A stretch of DNA of 43,954 nt from a virus. Positions within the stretch are counted from its first letter, which is position 1; every line of letters begins with the position of its first letter. Under the pieces are notes generated by a model. The model was not told the origin of the DNA and did no database searches. It worked only from the letters and a program-made list of their open reading frames with translations. Below, in pieces: positions 1 to 43,954 of the stretch. The stretch spans positions 1-43,954 of the IMG/VR virus record IMGVR_UViG_3300037628_000191; one strand, written 5' to 3'. The position numbers were made by a program, and so were the translations under genes.

Positions 1-126
1 TTTTCGGGTACAACTGCATCGACTACATTTTCAGTCGTTAGTAACTCGGAAATCATTGTATCAATTTGATTTTGACCGGGCTTTGCAACGCTTCTATTTC
101 GCTGCGTTCTTACTTCCGAGTTGCTT
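1..126. repeat. Direct repeat, left copy (map joint)
   Basis: These 126 bases recur exactly at 43806-43931. They lie inside the baseplate J coding sequence, and the reading frame continues correctly from base 1 into base 43805. This fits an assembler overlap of a circular or circularly permuted genome better than a functional terminal repeat. The non-redundant unit is 43,805 bp. Confidence 0.9.
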
Positions 127-665
127 TGCCTGTTTGTTCCAGGGGTCGCAATTGCCGTATTTGTTACAGATTGCCAGCCAGATACAGGATCGACAATAGT
201 TGTTATCGTGCCTATGCTCGCCTCTAATACTCCTGGGTTAACATTTGTAGCCGTACCACTTGCAACGCCGCCGACAATAGTTAAGTCACTGTCGATTGTC
301 CATCTATAACCAGTATCAACAGACTCCATTCTATGGCCAGCAGTGATTAACAGTCCCTCTGCTCCGCCAATTGAGATAGGCACTGATGACGGAGTGCCCA
401 AACTGCGAGTCTTGCCCGTAGTTAAATAAAGTAAAATGTCTAATTCAGAATCGACTGCTTTATTTGGATCTTTGGAGTTGTAAGCCTTTAGCCCGATTTC
501 GTCAAGTGTAGCCCATATTTCCGAGTCACTGGCAAGCTTCAGGCCGTCCAGAACAGACGGGTCTAAATTCCACTCTGAGTCAATAGCAAGATACATTTGC
601 TGCTCTTCCAAAAACCAGTCATTTGCATTTTTAACAATGTAGCCGTTTACTGTAATCTCAGCCAT
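1..665 (-). CDS. Baseplate J-like wedge protein, N-terminal part (continues at 43805)
   Basis: The gene starts with ATG at 665, runs leftward off base 1 and continues from 43805 to the stop at 43274. The joined protein is 398 residues. It begins MAEITVNGYIVKNANDWF and carries the baseplate-J/gp47-type pattern: an N-terminal wedge domain, then a repeated beta domain with VSGWQSVTN, then a segment NSEVRTQRNRS followed by an amphipathic helix. J-like proteins dimerise with the gp25/W-like wedge protein to form the arms of the contractile-tail baseplate. The start overlaps the end of the upstream gp25-like gene (658-1011), the usual W-J order. The family call is from pattern recognition. Confidence 0.85.
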   Translation of the reverse strand, partial: MAEITVNGYIVKNANDWFLEEQQMYLAIDSEWNLDPSVLDGLKLASDSEIWATLDEIGLKAYNSKDPNKAVDSELDILLYLTTGKTRSLGTPSSVPISIGGAEGLLITAGHRMESVDTGYRWTIDSDLTIVGGVASGTATNVNPGVLEASIGTITTIVDPVSGWQSVTNTAIATPGTNRQSNSEVRTQRNRSVAKPGQNQIDTMISELLTTENVVDAVVPE

Positions 666-2756: not shown

Positions 2757-3409
2757 AATAAACCCTCTATAACAGCTTGAGTTTCTGGCGATACTGGCAC
2801 GCCCAATACCTCGCCCTTGTTTTGCTCGGCCGCTGCTTGCGTTTGTGATGGGTCGCCTTCGTTTAACTGACTAACTGCCGGTTGGTTATTTGTGATCGTA
2901 GTTGATAGTAACGGCAACTCTTGCATCTCTATGATTAATTCAAGGCCTCCTTCGTTTTCAACTGTGCGCGATCTGCGTAGCTTTGTAATTACCATGTTTT
3001 TTGACATATAATCAACAGAGTCAACATCAAACGGTACGCGCGCGTACATGAGCGTCACAAAGAACTCAAGCACACTCTTTGCCCTTGATTCTTCTGCGCC
3101 ACCTACAAAGCCTGCTGATAGTCCTGCGATAGCAACTCCAACCGCTGAGCTGGCAAAGTTTGACACAAAGCCTATTGCTGATTCAATTAATCCATTAGAT
3201 AGCGGGTTATTCGAAACAACAACATGCATAATTTGAGTTGCAGGCCTAATTATTCCGTGATCGGATGCATCAGCGCCTATCTCTATTGGGAATTGCGTGT
3301 AGTCAACAGTGAATTCTAGCGAGTCCTCAGTCACTGCATCAAAGCTGATCCACTCGTCATCTATACCGATGCGTGGCGGGGTCTTTGTAAATATGGAAGT
3401 TAGCGACAT
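2753..3409 (-). CDS. Putative Dit-like tail/baseplate protein
   Basis: 218 residues. N-terminal beta-rich segment (ISFDAVTEDSLEFTVDYTQFPIEIG, about residues 21-45), a central Gly/Ala-rich hydrophobic stretch (about 75-105), then another beta region ending near EMQELPLL, and a low-complexity Gln/Glu tail. Size and place, directly after the tape measure and before plug and hub, fit the Dit-like or distal-tail proteins of compact myophages. The hydrophobic insert is unusual for a Dit fold. The function is inferred mainly from position. Confidence 0.5.
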   Translation of the reverse strand: MSLTSIFTKTPPRIGIDDEWISFDAVTEDSLEFTVDYTQFPIEIGADASDHGIIRPATQIMHVVVSNNPLSNGLIESAIGFVSNFASSAVGVAIAGLSAGFVGGAEESRAKSVLEFFVTLMYARVPFDVDSVDYMSKNMVITKLRRSRTVENEGGLELIIEMQELPLLSTTITNNQPAVSQLNEGDPSQTQAAAEQNKGEVLGVPVSPETQAVIEGLL

Positions 3410-3412
3410 TTA

Positions 3413-4729
3413 TTAACCCCTGTTAGATGTTGCGAAGTCTTGCACTAGTTGCTCGTTTTGCTCGTCAAGCTGTGTTTTTACAATCGCCTTAACTGGTGCG
3501 CCGTCAAGATTTACCTCTACTTTAATTGTTTGCGCTTGCGACCTTTCCGATCTTTCCGCTCTGATTGCTTTCCTATCATGCGGCGCAAATTCCCTATCGT
3601 GCAGTATAGGCTGAGTGTAATTTTCAGTAAAACCGCCGGCCACGTCTTCAGCATCAAGCGATCTCTGAGCCTCGTCATTGCCGAAAAAAGCAAGTGTTTT
3701 TGCTATCGTCCTGCCTATGTCAACGTTTGTATCATCATCCAACTGCTTGCTTATTTCTGAGCCTATAGCCCAACCAACAGCACCGGCAGCGGCTAACAAT
3801 CCAAGCTTACCGAGCAATGCAGATGCAGCGGTTCCAGCTGTTGTCATGCCTGCTGATATTAGTCCAATTTTACCAGCCGCTGCAGTCAATCCGCCAAGCA
3901 TTTTCGCGCCACCAAGTAGCGTCATTACCGTTGATATTGTCCCGATATTGTCAGCTAAAGCGCCCCCTCCAATCTCTAGCATGGAGTTTACTACTTCTCT
4001 ATTTGCGTCTGCCCACCCATTCATACCAACCATGATTTCAGCAATAGCCGCTGTCAACGGTGTTGCTATTTTATCTGAAAATCCAGATAGGTTGGTGTTC
4101 ATGTTTTGGTATTCGTCATTAAACTTAGCAGCGGTATCTGTCATTTTTTGAGTGACGGGAGCCATTTTTTTCTGCTGATTAACGACCTTTAATATTTCAG
4201 CTCGACCCTGTGAAAGCAATCTAACTTCAGACTCACCAAAGCCCATTGCCTCTATGAATTTTTCTTTTTGCTTTCCTTGAAGTGAATTTAGTTGATCAGC
4301 AGATACGAGAAATGCATCTAAAGCACTGCCGGCGTTAAGCACTTCATTTATTTGATTGCCTATGCCGAACTTAGACATTTCACCGAGCAACTGCGCGCGC
4401 TCAAATGGCGCAAGAGTTAGGGCTTTTGATAGGTTTCTAATGGTACCTAAAAACTCGCCCTGTGTACCGCCTGCAAGACCCAGCGCTTTATCGTATGCAG
4501 CAACATCATTTGCAGCGACATTCCAGCGCTCGCCAAACTTGCCAAGTTCATCTATTCTTTCAGCAAAGCCGAACGTTAGAGCGTCAACGCCAAATGCACC
4601 CGCGACAATAGCGCCAATCTGTAGCGCTTTTGAAGCCAACCCATCAAGCGAGTTTTCAGCGCCTTGAAATGATTTCTTATCAGTTTCGAGGCCAATGCCA
4701 ATTAATAACTCTTCTATTACCTGTGCCAT
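3413..4729 (-). CDS. Tape measure protein
   Basis: 438 residues. It has N-terminal helices with a repeated pattern (GLASKALQIGAIVAGAFG), a long helical middle, and a Gly/Ala-rich hydrophobic segment at about residues 245-325. These are standard for tape measure proteins, which fix tail length and are ejected with the DNA. By the usual 1.5 angstrom per residue rule it would give a tail of roughly 65 nm, an inference only. The ATG at 4729 overlaps the stop of the frameshifted chaperone product (TAATG), the standard order chaperone then tape measure. Confidence 0.85.
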   Translation of the reverse strand: MAQVIEELLIGIGLETDKKSFQGAENSLDGLASKALQIGAIVAGAFGVDALTFGFAERIDELGKFGERWNVAANDVAAYDKALGLAGGTQGEFLGTIRNLSKALTLAPFERAQLLGEMSKFGIGNQINEVLNAGSALDAFLVSADQLNSLQGKQKEKFIEAMGFGESEVRLLSQGRAEILKVVNQQKKMAPVTQKMTDTAAKFNDEYQNMNTNLSGFSDKIATPLTAAIAEIMVGMNGWADANREVVNSMLEIGGGALADNIGTISTVMTLLGGAKMLGGLTAAAGKIGLISAGMTTAGTAASALLGKLGLLAAAGAVGWAIGSEISKQLDDDTNVDIGRTIAKTLAFFGNDEAQRSLDAEDVAGGFTENYTQPILHDREFAPHDRKAIRAERSERSQAQTIKVEVNLDGAPVKAIVKTQLDEQNEQLVQDFATSNRG

Positions 4730-5291
4730 TAACCCGCCTGCTGTTTGTTTATGAGTTTAACGCGCTCATCTATTGCAATATTGCATATAAGAGCGAAATG
4801 TATGTCATGCGTACCGTCTTGAAAATCAGAGTATTTGCAAAGGGAGCCGCAGACATTCGCAACCCCCATTGCGGGACCCATGAAAAACCAATTTACAGGA
4901 GATTTTTTTCCTGCGCTTTTAGTTCCTCGATTAGCTCCGTAACCTGATTCCCGATAGAGATAAAAAAACTTTCAAGATTCACCATTAACCCATGACATAT
5001 TAATAAAACATAACTATCAATATCACCTTGAAAGTCAGATACATTAGATGCTGATTCGCTATTAAGCTTAAAGCAAAACGGCAATACAATATCAGCAATG
5101 TGCGTGATAGTGCCTTTTTGCGCAGACATTAACAGGCCTTTAAGGATGTTAATGCTGACCTTTGGTTGTCGAGCGCTCACGCAATTAGCAAGCAATCGAG
5201 CGCCTATTGTCTCGTACAAATCAAGCTGATCAACTGCCGAAGCTTGACCATATTGATATGTGATATCGTTAACTACTATCGTTTTAATCAT
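4729..5291 (-). CDS. Tail assembly chaperone, -1 frameshift form (GT-like)
   Basis: Slippage back by one base at AAAAAAT (4908-4902) would replace the last residues NLL with a 54-residue extension that begins SPVNWFFMGPAMG and ends KLINKQQAG at a TAA overlapping the tape measure start. The total is about 187 residues. The extension fills the otherwise empty 160 bases between the two genes. This G/GT arrangement is conserved in long-tailed phages. The site is seen; the frameshift itself is inferred. Confidence 0.7.
4893..5291 (-). CDS. Tail assembly chaperone, short form (G-like)
   Basis: 132 residues, starting at the ATG at 5291, which has a GAGG ribosome site, rather than the upstream ATG at 5312. 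The protein is mostly helical and ends EELKAQEKNLL. It lies between the tube and tape measure genes, the position of lambda G-type chaperones that bind the tape measure during tail assembly. A slippery AAAAAAT lies four codons before the stop codon, and the -1 frame is open to 4729. The role is inferred from position and the frameshift architecture. Confidence 0.75.
   Translation of the reverse strand: MIKTIVVNDITYQYGQASAVDQLDLYETIGARLLANCVSARQPKVSINILKGLLMSAQKGTITHIADIVLPFCFKLNSESASNVSDFQGDIDSYVLLICHGLMVNLESFFISIGNQVTELIEELKAQEKNLL
4902..4908 (-). promoter_or_regulatory. Slippery heptamer A AAA AAT in tail chaperone gene
   Basis: In the zero frame the codons are GAA AAA AAT, so the heptamer A_AAA_AAT fits the X_XXY_YYZ rule for tandem -1 slippage. 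It is four codons before the zero-frame TAA. Confidence 0.7.
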
Positions 5292-33303: not shown

Positions 33304-33330
33304 AAAAAAGCCCCAATTAAGGGGTTTTGT
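33304..33330. terminator. Terminator after ssb
   Basis: GCCCC / GGGG(C) stem with AATTAA loop. Leftward RNA ends in TTTTTT. It lies 29 bases after the tail-frame stop at 33359, and the region between contains only the -1-frame ssb tail, as expected if that tail is translated. Confidence 0.75.
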
Positions 33331-33358: not shown

Positions 33359-34023
33359 TTAAAAGGGAATATCATCATCGAAGTCCATTGAAGGCTCCGT
33401 GTAAGTTACTTTCCCGGCGCCTGTTGTCCTCCGTGTGGTTGATTTTGCGGATTAGGTTGCTGTTGATTATGCGCGGGCTGTTGTTGTTGTTGTTGCTGTT
33501 GTTGAGGCGCGGGTTGATACGCGGGGGCTTGCTGAGCTTGCTGTTGAGGTGCTTGAGCTTGCTGAGGCTTGTTGCCCCAGCTTTGTTGTTGCTGTTGCGG
33601 CGCAGGTGCTTGACTAGGCGTTTGCTGTTGAAATCCACCTTGCGATTGTTGTGGCGCTTGTTGACCACCTTGCCCGCCAGTACTTGCATCCATTAATTGC
33701 AACTCAGAAACAATAATTTTAGTAGAGTAGCGATCTTGCCCAGTGGTTTTATCTTGGAATTTATCAGTTTTAAGCTTACCTTCGATATAAACCTTTGCGC
33801 CTTTCTTTAAAAATTTACCGCACATTTCACCGAACTTTCCGAAAACCGTTAGGTTATGCCATTCAGTTTCATTCTCATACTCGCCCGTCTGTTTACTTTT
33901 CCATGACTCGGTTGTGGCAATTGAGAAATTACACACGGCATTACCATTCGGCATATAACGCATTTCAGGATCTTTGCCCAGATTGCCTACTAAAATAATT
34001 TTATTTACGCTTCTATTGAACAT
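33359..34023 (-). CDS. ssb: Single-strand DNA-binding protein, predicted -1 frameshift form with acidic tip
   Basis: Slippage at GGGAAAG (33415-33409) by -1 would let ribosomes bypass the TAA at 33408-33406 and add VTYTEPSMDFDDDIPF, giving 221 residues. MDFDDDIPF is the near-universal C-terminal tip of gammaproteobacterial SSB, the docking site for many replication and repair enzymes. The -1 frame has a TAA stop only 15 codons upstream, so the shift must occur in that short window, and this heptamer is the best site in it. Alternative: an indel in the sequence. The tail and site are seen; the frameshift is inferred. Confidence 0.75.
33406..34023 (-). CDS. ssb: Single-strand DNA-binding protein, zero-frame form without acidic tip
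   Basis: 205 residues. The OB fold occupies about residues 1-113 (SVNKIILVGNLGKDPEMRYM, then FSIATTESWKSK, and EWHNLTVFGKFGEMCGKFL). The rest is a Gln/Pro/Ala-rich linker that ends QQAPGK with no acidic tip. It would bind ssDNA during phage replication but could not recruit tip-binding partners. First codons have AAGGAAATAAC upstream. The Gln tract on DNA is a TTG/CTG microsatellite. Confidence 0.85.
   Translation of the reverse strand: MFNRSVNKIILVGNLGKDPEMRYMPNGNAVCNFSIATTESWKSKQTGEYENETEWHNLTVFGKFGEMCGKFLKKGAKVYIEGKLKTDKFQDKTTGQDRYSTKIIVSELQLMDASTGGQGGQQAPQQSQGGFQQQTPSQAPAPQQQQQSWGNKPQQAQAPQQQAQQAPAYQPAPQQQQQQQQQPAHNQQQPNPQNQPHGGQQAPGK
33409..33415 (-). promoter_or_regulatory. Slippery heptamer G GGA AAG in ssb
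   Basis: Zero-frame codons CCG GGA AAG TAA: the heptamer G_GGA_AAG obeys X_XXY_YYZ and equals the site used by lambda tail genes G/GT. The stop codon follows directly. GGAGG (33432-33428) lies 12 bases upstream, at a distance like that of the frameshift-stimulating Shine-Dalgarno of dnaX. Confidence 0.75.
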
Positions 34024-43273: not shown

Positions 43274-43931
43274 CTATATTATTGTTACTGTGATATTGCC
43301 CGCTGTAAATCGGGATTTCTCGTTGAATGCAATCGCCTTTACAGCTCCGCCATTTACTGAAATGTTTGATGTATATGAATTGCCGTATTGACCTACAACG
43401 CTATTCGTGGGCGTGAATAATTGACCCGAAGAAACATCATCGCCTATCCTGAAACCTTCGGCCCTAAATTGCCCCTGAGTTTCCAGATCTCCACCTGCGT
43501 ATTTGATGATCGCGTCTGCTACTAAATCCTCGATATTTCCAGGCAGGCTACCATCATCAACAAGCGTGACGACTATAATCATATCTATAAAATCAGGCCG
43601 TGAAAATGTTATGTCTTTTTTATTGCCCGTTGTCATTGATGTAACCTCGACAACGACAGGAGCATTTGCAGGGTGTAAAAATACGCCCGGTGATTTGTCA
43701 TGATAGATTGTTGTTGCGACTTCTGCATCAGCGCCGCCATCCACAATGATTGCAATTGAGTTTGCAGGCAATCCGTTACCATAAAAATTATCGGTGCCTG
43801 TGTCGTTTTCGGGTACAACTGCATCGACTACATTTTCAGTCGTTAGTAACTCGGAAATCATTGTATCAATTTGATTTTGACCGGGCTTTGCAACGCTTCT
43901 ATTTCGCTGCGTTCTTACTTCCGAGTTGCTT
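43274..43931 (-). CDS. Baseplate J-like protein, C-terminal part (partial here)
   Basis: Continuation of the gene whose N-terminal part lies at 1-665; the first 126 bases of this part are the duplicated joint. It encodes MISELLTTENVVDAVVPEND, the conserved J-domain loop with NGLPANSIAIIVDGG (A-x-S-I-x-V pattern), then DEPDFIDM-type strand and ends FTAGNITVTII. The stop at 43274 is 8 bases before the fibre gene. The reading beyond 43931 is not authentic. Confidence 0.8.
43806..43931. repeat. Direct repeat, right copy (map joint)
   Basis: Exact copy of bases 1-126. The match ends at 43931, where the sequence switches to bases found at 41795-41817 instead of continuing as at 127 onward. Confidence 0.9.
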
Positions 43932-43954
43932 AACGAGTCAATTATCGTTTTATC
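43928..43954. other. Out-of-place 27-base tail matching 41791-41817
   Basis: The last 27 bases equal 41791-41817 exactly. The first four (GCTT) are shared with the true continuation at 123-126, so the joint has 4 bp of microhomology. It implies a junction from 43931 (equivalent to 126) back to 41795. This is either a chimeric contig end or a real rearranged molecule. Confidence 0.85.

Follow-up and report, generated by a model that had tools for sequence, protein, structure and literature searches.

A marine phage ssb gene with its acidic tip in the −1 frame behind a slippery heptamer: a candidate for programmed frameshifting in single-stranded DNA-binding proteins

Introduction

The ssb gene of a marine phage ends at a stop codon before the acidic, partner-docking tip of its product, and the tip lies immediately beyond in the −1 frame, which raises the question of whether the tip has been lost or is added by a fraction of the ribosomes. 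The gene was found in IMG/VR record IMGVR_UViG_3300037628_000191, of which the whole stretch analysed (43,954 nucleotides) is referred to here as the window. The tip of the single-stranded DNA-binding protein (SSB) is a hub at which over 17 E. coli proteins of repair, recombination and replication dock, and is considered essential in E. coli, and the number of tails per SSB tetramer has been varied by engineering. In our assessment, programmed −1 frameshifting that yields both tipless and tipped SSB is the probable explanation and has good support, in the absence of any protein or ribosome data. As judged from the nucleotide sequence, this would be a known decoding device acting on a gene class for which no such description is known. 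A search of the open literature on SSB with programmed or translational frameshifting returned nothing relevant, in line with the earlier note, whose author knew of no SSB regulated in this way; most subscription papers were outside the search, so this absence is not proof. No mention of SSB was found in PRFect, nor in the accessible portion of the Atkins review.

Organization of the ssb Gene and Its Slip Site

The ssb gene was located on the minus strand at 33406..34023, where the 0-frame ORF encodes 205 aa: an OB fold is followed by a Q/P-rich linker, and the product, which corresponds to the tipless form, ends ...QQAPGK*. The OB-fold ssDNA-binding domain (33691..34008, minus strand) was recognised by its likeness to Psychromonas proteins and by a match to PF00436 (Pfam SSB), with a score of 130 bits (E 1.2e-39) against a cut-off of 26, so the product qualifies as a bacterial-type SSB. 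The 0 frame ends CAG GCG CCG GGA AAG TAA, with the slippery heptamer G_GGA_AAG at 33409..33415 (minus strand) in the correct phase for a slip and the stop TAA, read from the sequence, adjoining its 3′ side at 33406..33408 (minus strand). The −1 frame reads GGG AAA GTA ACT TAC ACG GAG CCT TCA ATG GAC TTC GAT GAT GAT ATT CCC TTT TAA. The resulting extension, VTYTEPSMDFDDDIPF with its stop TAA (33361-33359), spans 33359..33409 on the minus strand, overlaps the end of the 0-frame ORF and supplies a meaningful C-terminus, from which a tipped form of 221 aa with the junction QAPGK-VTYTEPSM is predicted. The acidic tip MDFDDDIPF (SSB-Ct; 33362..33388, minus strand) is present in the −1 frame only and is absent from the 0 frame, and the sequence EPSMDFDDDIPF is shared with most Psychromonas loci.

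Upstream of the site, a TAA at 33452..33454 (minus strand) closes the −1 frame, leaving 14 codons open, slip included, before VTYTEPSMDFDDDIPF* and confining the shift to them. An internal Shine-Dalgarno-like GGAGG was detected at 33428..33432 (minus strand), 12 nt 5′ of the heptamer, with an anti-SD duplex of −9.5 kcal/mol. The anatomy that the earlier note had described, namely G_GGA_AAG followed by TAA, a tip in the −1 frame and GGAGG 12 nt upstream, was confirmed directly on the minus-strand sequence, as was the confining −1-frame stop (TAA 33454-33452), with its distance corrected from 15 codons to 14. Across 11,072 codons of window CDSs, the ssb site is the only in-phase GGGAAAG, and none occurs at the 4,194 codon positions in other phage SSB linkers. 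On the 3′ side, a 9-bp bulged hairpin located 7 nt downstream (−8.5 kcal/mol, z −1.47) is unremarkable and was not counted as evidence. A terminator-like hairpin, CCCC TTAATT GGGG C T6, lies just 3′ of the tip ORF (33304..33324, minus strand), and was read by eye and left unscored.

Relationship to Psychromonas and Other Close Relatives

The SSBs nearest to that of the window are encoded on Psychromonas chromosomes (P. hadalis, P. marina and two more genomes), and their OB folds are 83-87% identical to its own. In these four genomes an MFS-transporter gene is located directly upstream of ssb, with an rlmJ-like gene beyond it in three (names from reading of the translations, with no family search), neighbours that mark the Psychromonas ssb loci as a chromosomal locus; the window phage probably took its ssb from a Psychromonas-like host. 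Examination of 19 Psychromonas loci showed the slippery site in none of them and an in-frame tip in 18: EPSMDFDDDIPF is identical in 17, L183 has a P to A change upstream of the tip, and L185 has no tip. The last of these (L185 3001-3525; Psychromonas sp. CD1, NZ_NDFH01000003.1) is an ssb at the usual chromosomal locus that ends QQYSTDYFSN* without an acidic tip, and it is the only full-length ssb found in the 1.7 Mb Psychromonas sp. CD1 genome.

No close relative of the window ssb with the same slippery site was found, and an exact-DNA search of IMG/VR for the window site gave no match. The nearest phage relative of the window SSB, L010 (71%), has no tip, and one of 41 records of TerL-related phages has an E. 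coli-type SSB match near that of the window (58%), the tail of which is unresolved. The earlier note had proposed to look for the arrangement in close relatives and would have given up the frameshift if these had in-frame tips and no slippery site. Taken alone, the Psychromonas loci are exactly such relatives; they are outweighed by the recurrence of the arrangement in five other phage SSBs, presented below.

Compared with the intact Psychromonas tips, the last 13 codons of the window tip carry four to nine third-position changes and at most one other, while 57-63 of 111 OB third-position sites differ between the window and its four nearest homologues. The changes in the tip are almost wholly at third positions, demonstrating that the out-of-frame tip was kept as coding sequence for nearly the whole of a long divergence. 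Such a pattern would result from a break that is very recent or from translation that has continued, and the window gene alone cannot separate the two.

The very recent break would be a true one-base deletion (e.g., G4 to G3, A4 to A3) that left a tipless SSB with a tip sequence not yet decayed. We regard this as unlikely, even though the Psychromonas relatives have the tip in frame, tipless SSBs are tolerated in phages, L010 included, and isolated breaks are known (L033 at C8, HK97 gp40, HF4s). Since the tip is commonly missing in phage SSBs, the window phage's own sequence does not rule out that it underwent a simple deletion recently. A protein can belong to PF00436 without the tip.

Recurrence in Other Phage SSBs

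IMG/VR was scanned for GGGAAAG followed by GAYGAYATHCCNTTYTRR within 10-40 nt, and 25 matches were obtained, six of which were recognised by SSB profiles. In four of the six (L263, L270, L278 and L280), a long 0-frame SSB ORF contains an in-phase G_GGA_AAG, with the tip following in the −1 frame, and in the other two (L269 and L281) the tip is in frame. The SSB of L263 is of the E. coli type, at 52% to that of the window, with a 0 frame ending ...QNQPGKPQG* and a −1 frame of AAGIDFDDDIPF, while the respective ends are ...GGQRGK and VAPQEPSLDFDDDIPF in L270, ...QNHSGK and VDKVQHFDFDDDIPF in L278, and ...QQQPGK and VITDFDDDIPF* in L280. The latter three fall into a divergent group of SSBs, relatives of HK97 gp40, with 43-60% mutual identity and no significant BLAST match to the window SSB. 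The second SSB profile was built partly from L270 and L278 themselves, which is a caveat on the recognition of matches; L278 and L263 match phrog_44 independently, and tblastn matched L270 and L280 to HK97 gp40 and its relatives. All the SSB cases found by motif share one of the six possible frame and phase combinations, the one that slippage needs. L265 and L283 (phrog_862) were rejected as SSBs; their 0 frame runs on, and the match is possibly due to chance.

A fifth case was met as a homologue, with no motif requirement, in the cultured phage 1.076.O._10N.286.51.B7 of the Vibrio collection (MG592452.1, host Shewanella). Its ssb (MG592452; GCGGGAAAGTAG) has the gene end CAAGCGGGAAAGTAG and the −1 frame GKVGSGQQPPNLGDEWDADIPF*, so that the shorter form ends QAGK and the junction of the predicted tipped form is QAGK-VGSGQQPPNLGDEWDADIPF. 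The 0-frame stop is the very next codon after the heptamer in five of the six sites (window, L270, L278, L280 and L453) and follows three codons later in L263, and it is TAA or TAG at all six. An association with SD-like elements was also observed: a strong element is located 10-15 nt upstream in four of the six sites, with best anti-SD duplexes 5-20 nt upstream of −9.5 (window), −11.9 (L263), −9.7 (L278) and −10.4 kcal/mol (L280), while it is weak in L270 and L453. Only 2.6% of positions in Q-rich phage linkers reach −9.5 kcal/mol, giving P of about 7e-6 for four of six.

Five further phage SSBs, which fall into two divergent groups and are not the nearest relatives, therefore share the arrangement; with one of the five cultured, it has the look of a genuine switch and not of a sequencing slip. 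This recurrence, cultured isolate included, supports the programmed −1 frameshift put forward in the earlier note. L270 and L280 may represent a single lineage, which leaves the count of independent origins uncertain, with at least two SSB groups involved. The out-of-frame slip arrangement was seen in one of some 20 cultured homologues examined. GGGAAAG near the tip was found in none of 369 Gammaproteobacteria genomes, and the GGGAAAGTAR variant in none of 347 genomes of one family; with no prophage copy in these host genomes, the device looks phage-specific and rare. GGGAAAG was the motif sought, and other slippery sites and looser tips are thus undercounted.

Controls and Alternative Explanations

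A one-base deletion does not predict that the same heptamer, phase and frame, with an adjacent stop in five of six, would recur in unrelated SSBs, nor does it predict the SD-like elements. The heptamer AAAAAAG, which is a longer and more indel-prone run than GGGAAAG, was used as a control, and should on this account yield out-of-frame tips more readily. All eight SSBs with AAAAAAG near the same tip have the tip in frame, against four of six out of frame for GGGAAAG (Fisher p 0.015). Among phage SSBs chosen by OB similarity, 64 have a recognised in-frame tip and a single one, L033, has its tip out of frame, where it lies behind C8 and in the other frame; this compares with the four of six at p 8e-5. 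Several of the phage SSB records are near-duplicates, so these p-values serve as guides. No in-frame GGGG precursor was found among the SSB matches, and a scan of tipless SSBs revealed no other slippery sites leading to a tip. One further AAAAAAG match, L381, was rejected, as the tip frame itself looks coding upstream.

Other irregular C-termini were observed among the SSBs. In L033 (IMG/VR, 3406-3470) DDDIPF* stands out of frame behind eight C's, possibly a phase-variable or error-prone tract. In L012, L040, L045, L087, L090, L446 and others, the tip is followed by a short extension (e.g., DDDIPFAPIGLQYGRNLLHVI*) that would bury the normally free C-terminal Phe. The SSB of L003 (2905-3460) stops after GGFAQ, and the same frame past the TAA reads GQQQGGFQQNQQAKVYGKPF*. 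HK97 gp40, an SSB (L439), has the tail DDSNPILI, while HK542 and S107 (L457/L440) have DDSIPF*, with a one-base difference breaking the HK97 tip.

A sequencing or assembly error in the metagenome contig, with the bases in dispute being GGGAAAGTAA, has to be considered because the IMG/VR record comes without reads and a low-complexity CAA/CAG linker lies just upstream; it is nevertheless very improbable. The run is only GGGAAA, and no other frame break is apparent in the window CDSs, as judged by the tight packing of ORFs across structural and replication genes, which makes a generally indel-ridden contig unlikely. A second frame break had been suspected in the chaperone region of the window, and that region proved intact. 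The same arrangement moreover came from four other metagenomes and from the cultured phage 1.076.O, which removes a metagenome artefact as the explanation of the phenomenon, though not strictly of the window contig.

Least credible of the three is the making of the tip as a free 9-residue peptide, a decoy tip, by re-initiation at the ATG of MDFDDDIPF: the window does have ACGGAG-CCTTCA-ATG with a 6 nt spacing, but E-P-S-M is conserved host coding sequence, and a start codon (ATG, GTG or TTG) is in frame in the window extension only and in none of the other five, so that re-initiation is ruled out as the mechanism shared by all the cases. Slippage at the level of transcription was discounted, the GGGAAA run being too short for it.

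Proposed Mechanism of Tip Addition

Under programmed −1 frameshifting, ribosomes that read straight on, many or even most of the total, would end at the TAA beside the heptamer and release the 205 aa SSB, which would bind ssDNA and have no partner-docking tip. At G_GGA_AAG a fraction of ribosomes is inferred to slip to GGG_AAA and to add VTYTEPSMDFDDDIPF, giving the 221 aa tipped SSB. The slip would be aided by pairing of the SD-like GGAGG with 16S rRNA and probably by the stop in the next codon, and both elements are expected, by inference, to raise the rate above that of a bare heptamer. The tipless and tipped subunits have the same OB core and are expected to assemble into mixed tetramers, so that the slip rate would set the number of tips per tetramer; the rate and the mixed tetramers are likewise inferred. 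The phage may in this way coat ssDNA while rationing the recruitment of host tip-binding enzymes, a role that is inferred too and is the least certain step.

By binomial reckoning and not by measurement, a lambda-like slip of 3% would leave about 87% of tetramers with no tip and about 12% with one, while 30-50% would give a mean of 1.2-2 tips. The statement in the earlier note that most subunits are tipless and a minority tipped is an assumption on efficiency, and the strong SD-like elements could exceed the lambda level. In E. coli, SSB tetramers deprived of two or three tails lean towards the 35 binding mode, and no fewer than two tails per tetramer suffice in vivo (PMC7145534), which indicates that tip number matters. 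A stoichiometry of few tips per tetramer is plausible and fits this published tail-number work, with no data on it from the phage.

Phages appear to set SSB tail number naturally via a frameshift. If true, this would place programmed frameshifting in a setting other than tail chaperones and transposases, would account for some of the phage SSBs that seem to lack a tip, would predict mis-annotated C-termini, and would be testable in cultured 1.076.O on Shewanella. More tentatively, and with more doubt than confidence, several phage lineages may independently have placed the SSB tip under −1 frameshift control, with tip number set translationally; this may extend to gp32-type SSBs (L388, L288), and the adjacent TAA or TAG would make this setting respond to release factor 1 and to translation status in the course of infection.

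Comparison with Known Frameshift Systems and SSB Families

An upstream Shine-Dalgarno element assists the −1 slip of E. coli dnaX (tau/gamma). The phage ssb resembles dnaX in being a replication gene with an SD-like aid and in that two forms, differing in partner binding, would mix in an oligomer; however, the shifted dnaX product is shorter and lacks the partner-binding part, whereas the ssb shift would add the tip. The two also differ in heptamer, that of dnaX being A_AAA_AAG (PMC5009743). The same review lists G_GGA_AAG as highly shift-prone in E. coli, and the comparison with the lambda G/GT site made in the earlier note holds insofar as the window heptamer is of the same shift-prone class (PMC5009743).

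As in phage lambda G/GT, the heptamer is near the gene end and a C-terminal partner-binding segment would be added to a minority of the product, the gpG:gpGT ratio being about 30:1 in lambda (PMC5009743). Unlike G/GT, the phage ssb belongs to DNA metabolism and not to tail assembly, the added part is a 16-residue docking peptide and not a domain, and a stop stands directly after the heptamer with an SD-like element before it. The window also has, separate from that of ssb, a canonical G/GT-type frameshift arrangement in its tail assembly chaperone gene at 4893-5291 (minus strand), with A_AAA_AAT at 4902-4908 near the gene end and a −1 frame (4731-4910, minus strand) open to just before the tape-measure gene.

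The window SSB shares the OB fold, the disordered linker and the tip MDFDDDIPF with E. coli-type SSBs, and differs in that its tip is not in the 0 frame, so that tipless and tipped subunits are predicted. The HK97 gp40-like SSBs (relatives of phrog_44: L270, L278, L280 and 1.076.O) share with it the end ...GK* and a GGGAAAG that is followed by the tip in the −1 frame; their OB domain, however, is divergent from that of the window, and most family members examined have in-frame tips. Two gp32-like SSBs, L388 and L288 (phrog_1192, phrog_15004), were among the AAAAAAG matches in IMG/VR; DDIPF* follows A-runs in their −1 frame (EQQEEDFLDDIPF and SSYANDDIPF), and their 0 frames extend by about 40 residues or more to give a tail with Cys. 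No cultured relatives of L388 or L288 were found by tblastn; they could represent the same trick in a third SSB family and are leads only.

At the ends of the window (1-302 and 43694-43954), a simple join is out of frame, and a baseplate J-like gene appears to be split between them, which suggests a circularly permuted or circular genome.
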